The position numbers and the translations under genes were made by a program. From Saprospirales bacterium (lineage in GTDB: Bacteria > Bacteroidota > Bacteroidia > Chitinophagales > Saprospiraceae): a DNA stretch of 40,030 bases. The notes beneath the pieces are model-generated. The model saw only the letters and a list, made by a program, of their open reading frames with translations, was not told where the DNA came from and searched no databases. Location of the stretch: the NCBI GenBank assembly GCA_002698985.1, contig PAAY01000033.1, forward strand, positions 1 through 40,030. Reading direction: 5' to 3'. This document shows positions 5,771-27,558 of the stretch, piece by piece. Position 1 is the stretch's first letter, and every line of letters begins with the position of its first letter.

Positions 5771-6553
5771 TCAGTTTCTTTCACACACCACCTGCCCTTT
5801 GAAGCGCAGATCGATGGTGCTGTATTTTTGCCAGCCCTCGTGGCTGAGGGCTTCCTGGTAGAAAATCCGCAGCCGCCGGAGTTTTTGCTCCAGGTTGTCC
5901 ACGCCTCCCAGTATCACGAGCTGGTCGCCAACTTTGGGAACCAACACGAATTCATTTCTTCGATTCACATACACCTGCTCGAACATGGCTGACCAAAGCG
6001 GGTCGGCCAGAATGGTTTGGGTCAGTTCGAACAGGTCTTTCAGCAAGTGTTTTTTGCGAAGCTGAAAGTCTGAAGTGAAGTGCGGGATATTTCCGGTGGC
6101 CACCAGCGTTCTGGCGGTGAAGTGCTTAGAGAGCGGCACCCTGCTGCCCGTCTCGTCCAGGTAGTACTGAACGCCCTCGCTGTCAATGACCCGCAACACG
6201 GGCTGCCGTTGGGTGATAATCACCTTTACCTTGCTGTTGGCGGTGATGGCCACTTCGGCATTTTTCACAAATGCATCTTCTTCCAAAAACCGCTCGATGC
6301 GGTCGGGGTCGATATTGCCGGCAGGCAGACCGTCCAGCGACTCTCCCCAGCTCTTGTTGATGATGGAGACCACATCGGTGCTGTCGATCAGAAACACATT
6401 GCCTTCCAGCGGATTCACCACCACCTCCGTGGCCAGCACGGGCATGGCCAGCTTGCGGTTGATGGCTGCCGTGATGAGCAGCATCAACAGGCCTGCACCC
6501 GTGATCAAACCCACGCGCTTCAGCACTTTTATGGTATCGTCGTTAAACATCAT
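5771..6553 (-). CDS. ftsQ: Cell division protein FtsQ
   Basis: The protein has 260 residues, a short cytoplasmic N-terminus and one transmembrane helix (about 13-32, VGLITGAGLLMLLITAAI). A periplasmic POTRA-like segment follows (NPLEGNVFLIDSTDVVSII to VIITQRQPVLRVID), then the FtsQ beta domain. FtsQ bridges early and late divisome proteins with FtsL/FtsB-type partners. Its ATG overlaps the murC stop by 4 bp, which implies translational coupling, and ftsA follows after 59 bp. Family sequence conservation is low, so the call rests on topology, size, the QRxPVLRV motif and gene order. Confidence 0.9.
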   Translation of the reverse strand: MMFNDDTIKVLKRVGLITGAGLLMLLITAAINRKLAMPVLATEVVVNPLEGNVFLIDSTDVVSIINKSWGESLDGLPAGNIDPDRIERFLEEDAFVKNAEVAITANSKVKVIITQRQPVLRVIDSEGVQYYLDETGSRVPLSKHFTARTLVATGNIPHFTSDFQLRKKHLLKDLFELTQTILADPLWSAMFEQVYVNRRNEFVLVPKVGDQLVILGGVDNLEQKLRRLRIFYQEALSHEGWQKYSTIDLRFKGQVVCERN

Positions 6554-8007
6554 TTGCTTCTTTTCGCTCCGGCGGATTCCTTCCGCTGTTTCAGTAGTTC
6601 TTTTATCGGTTCCACAAGGGTGTCGATATCTCCGGCTCCGAGGGTCAGCAGCACATCCACCTCCCTTTTTGCCAGTTCGCCGAGTGCCTCTTCCTTTCTG
6701 ATCAGCACCTTGTTGGGGTTTTGCATCCGGTCAAAAATGATGGCGGAGCTGACCCCTGCTATCGGTTTTTCCCTGGCCGGATAGATGTCCAGCAGGATCA
6801 CCTCATCCAGTTGGTCCAGTGCTTCGGCAAAGCCATCGGCAAAATCCCTGGTCCGGGAGTACAGGTGCGGCTGAAAAATTCCGGTCACCTTTCTTCCGGG
6901 CAGCAGTTCCTTCGCTGCTCCAATAGCTGAGCGCAACTCGGTGGGATGGTGTGCATAGTCGTCGAAATAGACACAATGCTCATCCCTGTAAATCATTTCA
7001 AAGCGGCGTTTGATTCCTTTGAATGTCACCAGTCCTTTGCGCAGCGCTTCTTCGCCAATTCCGAGTTGGCAAGCCACTGCCAGGGCTGCTGCCGCATTTT
7101 CGACGTTGTGCCTGCCGGGCATCGGCAGGGCCATGTTTTCCCATAGTGTTTCATCGCAGCTCCGGCTCCTTTTTGCGCTCCGGCCGCTGGCCGGAGTTGC
7201 CTCCCCAGACACAAAAGAAGCCGGAGCTGCGAAGTCGAAAACAAAATGGCCGTCGTTCACCCTCACATTCCGGGCGGAGAAGTCGCCCTTTTCCAGTCCG
7301 AATGTTTGGCACTGTATGCTTTCGAAGTGGCCGGTCAGTTCAGCTTTCATCAGGATTTTGCCCCCCGGTTTCACTTTTCCGAGGAAGGCAGCGAATCCAG
7401 ATTTCATCACCTGCTCAGGGTCCCCGTAGATGTCGAGGTGGTCGGGGTCGGCGCTGAGCAGGATGGCGATGTCGGGGCTGAGATGCAGGAAGCTGCGATC
7501 GTATTCGTCCGCTTCCACCACCACCCAGTCGCTGTTGCCGGCAACGTAGTTCGAACCAAAGTTTTCACAAATCCCTCCGAGGAAAGCCATGCAGCTGATG
7601 CCACCACTGTGCAGCAGGTGTGCGACCATTGACGATGTGGTGGTTTTTCCATGCGTGCCGGCCACGGCGATGGTGCGGTGGTTCCTGCTGATGAGTCCGA
7701 GCACTTCGGCCCTTTTCATCATGGGGGTTCCGGCCTTTTTGAAAAACTGCCACTCAGCGTGCTCAACAGGCACGGCCGGTGTCCATACCACCAGGTCGAT
7801 GCCCGGCGGAATGAGTTCCGTGTTTTCCTCGTAGTGGATTTTCATCCCTTCAGCGACCAACTTTTTGGTCAGGGTTGTTTCTGTGCGGTCGTAACCGTAT
7901 ATCTCGCATCCTCTGTCGTTGAAATAGCGGGCGATGGCGCTCATGCCGATGCCGCCAATTCCGAGGAAGTAGAGTTTTTTCAAAGAATCGAGCTGCATAG
8001 TTTTCAA
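6550..8007 (-). CDS. murC: UDP-N-acetylmuramate--L-alanine ligase MurC
   Basis: MurC is a cytoplasmic ATP-dependent ligase that adds L-Ala to UDP-MurNAc, the first residue of the stem peptide. The 485 residues show the N-terminal Rossmann motif GIGGIGMS (16-23), the ATP P-loop GTHGKTTT (117-124), LPMPGRHNVENA in the central domain, and DDYAHHPTE at the C-terminal domain boundary. The protein is about 25 residues longer than expected because residues 260-284 (AAPASFVSGEATPASGRSAK then RSRSC) are encoded by a palindromic insertion at 7156-7230. Without it, HFVFDF would join DETLWENMALPMPG directly, as in ordinary MurC. Its start overlaps the murG stop by 4 bp and its stop overlaps the ftsQ start by 4 bp. 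An ATG at codon 4 is an alternative start. Confidence 0.97.
   Translation of the reverse strand: MKTMQLDSLKKLYFLGIGGIGMSAIARYFNDRGCEIYGYDRTETTLTKKLVAEGMKIHYEENTELIPPGIDLVVWTPAVPVEHAEWQFFKKAGTPMMKRAEVLGLISRNHRTIAVAGTHGKTTTSSMVAHLLHSGGISCMAFLGGICENFGSNYVAGNSDWVVVEADEYDRSFLHLSPDIAILLSADPDHLDIYGDPEQVMKSGFAAFLGKVKPGGKILMKAELTGHFESIQCQTFGLEKGDFSARNVRVNDGHFVFDFAAPASFVSGEATPASGRSAKRSRSCDETLWENMALPMPGRHNVENAAAALAVACQLGIGEEALRKGLVTFKGIKRRFEMIYRDEHCVYFDDYAHHPTELRSAIGAAKELLPGRKVTGIFQPHLYSRTRDFADGFAEALDQLDEVILLDIYPAREKPIAGVSSAIIFDRMQNPNKVLIRKEEALGELAKREVDVLLTLGAGDIDTLVEPIKELLKQRKESAGAKRSK
7156..7230. repeat. 75-bp palindromic element inserted in frame in murC
   Basis: Perfect 13-bp terminal inverted repeats (7155-7167, CGCAGCTCCGGCT; 7219-7231) enclose an internal perfect hairpin, CTCCGGCC (7178-7185), loop GCT, GGCCGGAG (7189-7196). 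The element is 75 bp long, begins on a codon boundary and adds exactly 25 codons (residues 260-284) with no stop. No clear target duplication is visible. The layout resembles the in-frame palindromic elements known from Rickettsia genes (RPEs); relationship to them is not implied. Confidence 0.75.
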
Positions 8008-27450: not shown

Positions 27451-27558
27451 TTGAGAGAAGTTGAGAGAGGTTTAGAGGGGTTTAGAGGGGTTGGCCAACC
27501 TCCATAACCCTCCATAATCCTCCATAATCCCTATAATCCCTATAATCCCTATAATCCT
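27451..27558. repeat. Two blocks of 9-10-bp tandem repeats around a TTGGCCAA palindrome
   Basis: The left block has four 10-mers (TTGAGAGAAG, TTGAGAGAGG, TTTAGAGGGG twice; 27451-27490). The centre is TTGGCCAA (27491-27498). The right block has CCTCCATAAC, CCTCCATAAT twice, and CCCTATAAT three times (27499-27555). The right block read on the other strand (ATTATGGAGG) resembles the left unit, so the whole can fold as an imperfect long hairpin. It sits between two convergent genes and encodes nothing. Confidence 0.85.

Follow-up and report, generated by a model that had tools for sequence, protein, structure and literature searches.

The murC gene of a Saprospiraceae genome contains an old palindromic insertion that stands in frame, was found once per carrier genome, is constrained at the nucleic-acid level and pairs better on the mRNA strand than on its complement. 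Judging from the homologous sequences, matched mutations appear to have preserved the shape of the folded RNA, whereas the encoded protein drifted. We give a slightly better than even chance to the reading that the insertion is an inverted duplication kept by selection as a cis-acting mRNA structure in the murC-ftsQ-ftsA message.

The murC gene and its element

The window (the whole stretch analyzed, 40,030 nt) is the entire contig C39 of a draft genome of 4.83 Mb in 102 contigs, which is 95.5% complete and is called G000 here. On the minus strand, the gene order is murG, murC, a protein in the ftsQ position and ftsA. The third protein has no NCBIfam match and is named ftsQ because of this gene order. 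The murC product has three Mur ligase Pfam domains and, with the insert in place, still scores above the curated cut-off for MurC. The features of the element, as well as the extra sequences that follow it in related genomes, are listed in Table 1. The covariance model R1 scores 79.6 bits on the mRNA strand and 32.4 bits on the opposite strand, a match that is to be expected since R1 was built from these sequences.

Table 1. Features of the murC element in the window and of the sequences directly 3' of it in related murC genes.
Feature	Position	Strand	Basis or remark
murC (UDP-N-acetylmuramate--L-alanine ligase), carries the element	6550..8007	-	NCBIfam murC, 378.6 bits (cut-off 335.1)
Whole structured element, model R1	7150..7236	-	covariance model match
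Net inserted DNA, 23 codons, residues 263-285	7153..7221	-	borders uncertain by a few bases
Outer stem, 5' arm	7213..7232	-	outer part (7222-7232) in native MurC codons F-A-A-P
Outer stem, 3' arm	7154..7173	-	within the inserted DNA; repeats the 5' arm in inverted form
First inner hairpin	7198..7211	-	contains GGGAGGC (7199-7205), invariant in 12/12 rows of alignment A2
Second inner hairpin	7178..7196	-	8 perfect pairs, 3-nt loop
Extra 3' sequence: GCGGATT palindromes	murC of G012 (L016), G005 (L020), G001 (L022), G013 (L029)
Extra 3' sequence: different palindrome	murC of G008
Extra 3' sequence: short repeat	murC of G004
Extra 3' sequence: about 60 residues	murC of G011 (L034), G006 (L036)

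The original prediction described a 75-bp palindrome in frame in murC, and positions 7156-7230 do form 25 codons on a codon boundary with no stop. Its nested 8-bp hairpin (CTCCGGCC-GCT-GGCCGGAG) is likewise present, with all pairs perfect. The perfect 13-bp terminal repeats, on the other hand, do not agree with the letters, where the perfect run is 14 bp long if counted from 7154 and 12 bp long if confined to 7156-7230; the best arms are those of the outer stem, with 19 of 20 positions paired. The region 7156-7230 folds at -45.4 kcal/mol, whereas its shuffles average -26.0 (z -5.8; none of 200 equals it). A second relic had been suspected at the MurC C-terminus (SAGAKRSK), but this end is absent from the own-genome blast matches of the unit, and the nearest relative (L058) ends in NSDAGSK where the MurC of the window ends in ESAGAKRSK. 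In the region 6900-7500, no terminator-like site was found at the element by a scan limited to loops of 3-8 nt, and the eight Rfam matches up to E 10 all lie under their gathering scores. The motif CTCCGGC was considered as a genome signal, since the window has 23 copies where dinucleotide frequencies predict 5.2. It was dropped because a higher-order model on a 412-kb sample left a mild enrichment (143 vs 112, rank 111 of 16,362) and none for its 8-base extensions.

The empty site

MurC was found in all 60 genomes searched, the own genome included, and 53 of them could be assessed for the insert: 27 by alignment and 26 more by HSP spacing, the remainder being G017, G020, G025, G046, G047, G050, and G056. 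The alignment was made without L024, L030, and L042 (from G056, G047, and G029, respectively), with G029 covered by HSP spacing. We measured the loop that separates the FD[FLY] strand from the GRHN motif. It is 13 residues long in all 14 aligned insert-less rows and 34 to 95 residues long in the 13 carriers, with 36 in the window, which corresponds to 23 extra codons (69 nt). HSP spacing was determined for 32 insert-less genomes, six of which also stand in the alignment; the difference is exactly 23 codons for 23 of them and 14 to 26 codons for the remaining nine.

The insert is thus missing from the MurC of the insert-less relatives, as predicted, and an empty site exists. The net difference is nevertheless 23 codons and not the exact 25 of the expected clean excision, so the 75-bp palindrome is longer than the inserted DNA. 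The outer codons of the 5' arm (F-A-A-P) align with native MurC positions. Their homology is plausible from this alignment but not tight at the letter level, because the third position is P in 7 of the 14 insert-less rows (G007, G036, G014, G033, G031, G032, and G040). Since the 3' arm inverts these native upstream codons, the insertion would have arisen by foldback duplication, not from a mobile element bounded at both ends by its own sequence, and an origin by inverted duplication is probable on the sequence comparison.

Distribution and history in the genus

Thirteen of the 14 genomes of the genus carry the insert, always at the same site, and all of the 39 other relatives assessed lack it. 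The only insert-less member of the genus, G007, has the 13-residue loop. Trees calculated without the loop nest it among the carriers (support of 100/99 for its clade), and the carriers as a single clade are rejected (AU p 0.0014), which requires two changes, some outgroup branches being long. A single gain followed by a single loss would explain this most simply. In G002, the homologous ends are retained but the fold is lost: 200 of 500 protein-preserving resamplings fold as well, and the antisense strand is stabler than the sense strand. The loss in G007 and the decay in G002 indicate that the element is not essential. The reading frame is kept in 13/13 carriers, although the MurC of G013 is cut by a contig end. 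Extra sequence follows directly 3' of the element in eight carriers. The segment of about 60 residues shared by G011 and G006 has no Pfam family and no match beyond those two murC genes in 40 genomes; 22 of 70 amino acids differ between the two.

Conservation of the fold and of silent sites

Twelve of the 13 homologues share one fold plan, a three-way junction of an outer stem and two hairpins, with folding energies from -39.9 to -59.6 kcal/mol. In the same proportion of homologues, at most 13 of 500 protein-preserving codon resamplings fold as well. Among windows of murC, the element ranks first of 65 in G000 and G004 and fifth of 63 in G009. We aligned 12 homologues (alignment A2), with G002 excluded from both A2 and R1 because its fold has decayed. 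The consensus comprises 31 pairs, with 94.9% of cells paired and 12 pairs with changes on both sides. Shuffles, which do not keep relatedness, match the observed values in 0/500 cases on four measures and in 8/500 on a fifth, and slid structures pair 39-52% of cells, although it should be noted that the alignment and its consensus derive from the same sequences. Paired changes can alter both encoded amino acids, as with GTA/TAC in G004 against GCA/TGC in G000. All these figures come from one genus, with 13 homologues and five sister pairs.

The five sister pairs cover 10 of the 13 carriers (without G002, G004, and G012), the pair G005/G008 being taken from an unresolved group. Sixteen consensus pairs differ between sisters; 14 of these are canonical in both members and two are non-canonical in one, while the chance of a canonical pair after one random change is 0.29. 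Six of the 16 are altered on both sides and ten on one, and four of the latter come from just two columns, each of which changed in two sister pairs. Silent changes are strongly reduced in the element, with 4 in 100 codons against 450 in 1820 in the murC flanks (Fisher p 8e-8), and four-fold sites behave alike (3/64 vs 244/868; p 6e-6). None of 405 flank windows has silent change as low as that of the element. Amino-acid changes are not reduced (20/124 vs 203/2083; p 0.03). For G006 and G011, silent changes number 0/20 in the element and 25/45 in the 70 codons that follow it in the loop. The contrast at silent sites shrinks in distant pairs; identical codons between G000 and G012, for example, amount to 5/11 in the element and 139/289 in the flanks. 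Within the element, paired bases change only about twofold more slowly than unpaired ones, both in the own folds (21/320 vs 16/97; p 0.007) and in the consensus fold (22/310 vs 15/107; p 0.046). Selection at the RNA level as such is, on these counts, a fairly likely explanation.

Strand of the signal and arm homogenization

The main rival is that the arms are maintained by mutation. Template switching during replication (quasipalindrome correction) would homogenize them, and the element would need no use. Template switching at inverted repeats homogenizes arms and causes paired amino-acid changes in yeast coding genes (PMC8604942), and repeat conversion is favored for the coding palindromes of nematomorphs in the account cited (PMC6649704). 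The both-sided changes in six of the 16 changed sister pairs and the arm that inverts native codons fit this explanation as well. It predicts, however, perfect arms with no preference between G-U and A-C, whereas the observed arms are imperfect and the outer stem has 26 GU cells against 2 AC cells, a count that is biased by the consensus. Wobble counts from a consensus fold favor GU by construction, but a fold-free count over 16 outer positions also gives 11 GU against 2 AC cells, from 4 and 1 columns, respectively.

The strands differ in further respects. The sense fold is stabler than the antisense fold in 12/12 homologues, leaving out G002, where the reverse holds. The sense consensus has 31 pairs at -44.0 with 60 GU and 5 AC cells, while the antisense consensus has 21 pairs at -33.1 with 4 GU and 6 AC cells. 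The far better pairing of the mRNA strand is not what template switching predicts, nor is the single plan kept by the inner hairpins though their letters differ between G000 and G004. The wobble pairs fit the mRNA strand and lean toward RNA over duplex DNA, and against template switching in its pure form, which we therefore consider an unlikely explanation of the element, if the strongest of the alternatives.

Copy number and other palindromes of the genus

An element of the Rickettsia RPE type would be expected in several copies. The predicted further copies of the unit were not recovered: blast against the own genome gave, besides the element itself, only partial matches of 14-19 nt. Across the genus, 10 of 14 genomes gave a blast match, in a single place each and always within murC. 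The R1 search of 100 genomes, with filters that may lose weak matches, had matches in 14: in murC of the 13 carriers (weak in G002, E 0.05) and, weakly, in G060 (E 0.0038), at a place where neither of the ORFs listed resembles MurC by eye. The arm 11-mer is not enriched over its reversed control in 14 genomes, the arm of G000 being one base off this 11-mer. A palindrome pattern with a spacer of 20-50 nt matched only the murC of G012 among 298 family genomes; this pattern is weak by design since the spacer in G004 is 52 nt. Found once per carrier, the element is not a dispersed RPE-like family. The lack of other copies thus speaks against the repeat that the original prediction had in mind, while the clean empty site it also relied on was found. 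A single copy per carrier, a native outer 5' arm and a hairpin that 12 of 13 homologues preserve through matched changes all argue against an RPE-like repeat.

Palindromes of other kinds are nevertheless present in the genus. Nine of the 14 genomes contain dispersed copies of GCGGATTGCGGATT (control zero), which G000, G002, G003, G007, and G009 lack. The 7-bp repeat GCGGATT, often inverted, is dispersed in 9/14 genomes, four of which have one directly 3' of the murC element. The GACTTTCCAAGTTT palindrome is found in 6/14 genomes, with 19 partly clustered sites in G006. In the 412-kb sample of G000, which includes the window, 2 of 20 inverted repeats lie inside ORFs, the one in murC having the higher score. 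The corresponding figure for 400 kb of G004 is 9 of 46, murC included, some of these ORFs perhaps not being genes.

Several individual sites deserve mention. In G004, a UvrD/PD-(D/E)XK helicase has a GCGGATT-type inverted repeat (L125:18304-18435) in frame within its UvrD_C match, immediately ahead of LLSAHASKGLEF, and a dispersed palindrome (GACTTTCCAAGTTT/AAACTTGGAAAGTC) stands in frame in a FAD-binding protein of the same genome (L121:4808-4842). Both are likely insertions, and the helicase repeat is probably an RPE-like in-frame insertion in Bacteroidota. It is these two palindromes, rather than the murC element, that resemble RPEs. G004 also has an inverted repeat in an open frame, either just upstream of FtsZ or at its putative N-terminus (L136:6420-6490). 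In the window, positions 27467-27522 form a palindrome of GAGGGGTTTAGA-type repeats, with similar repeats in L116 and L111 of the same genome. The idea of RPE-like palindromes is thus not supported for the predicted element but finds partial support in the in-frame palindromes of G004 and in the GCGGATT family beside the element.

Such elements lend some support to the view that the murC element is itself an old mobile palindrome (RPE- or MITE-like) whose other copies were lost and whose fold is a leftover. GCGGATT repeats (9/14 genomes) and GACTTNCCAAGTTT palindromes (6/14) belong to the genus, some palindromes stand in frame in genes, and some adjoin the murC element. This view is improbable, as the searches found a second copy in neither the own genome nor the genus and R1 gave one weak match outside murC in 100 genomes. 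The net insert is also shorter than the palindrome, with a native 5' arm, and a leftover should decay, yet the silent sites are nearly frozen.

Horizontal spread and the encoded peptide

Low divergence between sister species, at four-fold sites (3/64) and in the element overall, could also result if the element, with little flanking sequence, had recently moved between species, near-neutral and with all its sites young. This is very improbable: the groupings of the element match the murC tree (G000/G003, G009/G010, and G001/G013), distant members have diverged in the element as much as elsewhere, and the changes spare pairs (14/16 kept) and are rarer at paired bases.

The AlphaFold2 prediction of MurC (six sequences) has a mean pLDDT of 83.2 and a pTM of 0.84, the other four models reaching 58.7-63.8, and its best PDB matches are MurC structures. 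Residues 268-283, with pLDDT below 50, are placed in a turn between the strands 254-262 and 286-294. The peptide pattern APxSGRSWEA...GRSYE recurs in most carriers and the frame is always kept, as selection for a useful surface peptide would predict, but the low pLDDT of this region and a rate of amino-acid change no lower than that of the flanks, with silent changes rare, make such selection scarcely credible.

Comparison with known systems

Coding palindromes are usually read either as decaying selfish DNA or as repeats kept by conversion. The Rickettsia RPEs and Wolbachia WPEs are described as in-frame palindromic DNA in housekeeping genes, at solvent-exposed sites and shared by orthologues (PMC10969869, PMC3767692), and RPEs are reported to lose their repeat identity over time (PMC6649704). 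By these descriptions, the murC element is similar in being a palindromic in-frame insertion inside an ORF. It differs from RPEs, which form dispersed families of about 100-150 bp, in that it was found once per carrier, adds 69 nt net, includes a native arm and has retained its fold in most cases.

The mitochondrial genes of nematomorphs contain coding inverted repeats with paired, partly non-synonymous changes, described as perfect palindromes of up to 284 bp in conserved protein regions that are thought to be kept by repeat conversion (PMC6649704). The murC element is also a coding inverted repeat with paired, partly non-synonymous changes, but it is imperfect, contains G-U pairs and is confined to one bacterial gene. 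Translational bypassing offers another comparison: the inserts of T4 gene 60 and of Magnusiomyces mitochondria are described as short and within a gene, with structure in T4 (PMC5009743). The murC element is likewise a short insert inside a gene, but is in frame and stop-free. Bypassing was rejected as a candidate, with matching take-off and landing codons at the offset of the element in one of 13 homologues (GAC, in G012); taking the whole loop as the offset gave one or two chance-like codon matches in 6/13.

Cis-acting RNA in coding sequence shares more with the element, which shows covarying pairs and reduced silent change (weaker in distant pairs) in an open frame. The element is unlike such RNA in that it began as an insertion and has no Rfam family at threshold. 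A search of open-licence PMC (titles and the beginnings of abstracts) found no description of a palindrome in the coding sequence of murC, nor of any in coding sequences of Bacteroidota.

Possible origin and role

The reading we prefer, an inverted duplication retained as a cis-acting mRNA structure, would run as follows. A foldback duplication would have arisen in murC of an ancestor of this Saprospiraceae genus. Because it preserved the reading frame and fell into a turn that connects two strands, the enzyme would have tolerated it. The RNA fold, with two hairpins inside an outer stem of about 20 pairs, would then have been kept in most lineages by selection on the mRNA strand, and the element would act in cis on the murC-ftsQ-ftsA message. 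Most likely it would serve as a double-stranded landmark cut by an RNase III-type enzyme, or would slow ribosomes, and such processing or pausing would set the output of MurC relative to the downstream division genes. This putative role of a long stem in a polycistronic message, as endonuclease substrate or ribosome brake, is a doubtful part of the proposal. A bolder version is possible, though we hold it below even: the palindromic insertion may have become a functional three-way-junction RNA, its shape protected at the cost of the protein, that sets the expression of a cell-wall and division operon or is released as a small RNA.

The murC homologues allow substitution counts to separate protein selection, arm conversion and RNA selection, and the counts lean toward RNA selection. 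If confirmed, the element would represent a route from an accidental inverted duplication to a regulatory RNA inside an essential gene. For the Bacteroidota, the palindromes of this genus mean that RPE-like in-frame insertions probably occur in the phylum, with one loop of MurC as a repeated landing site.
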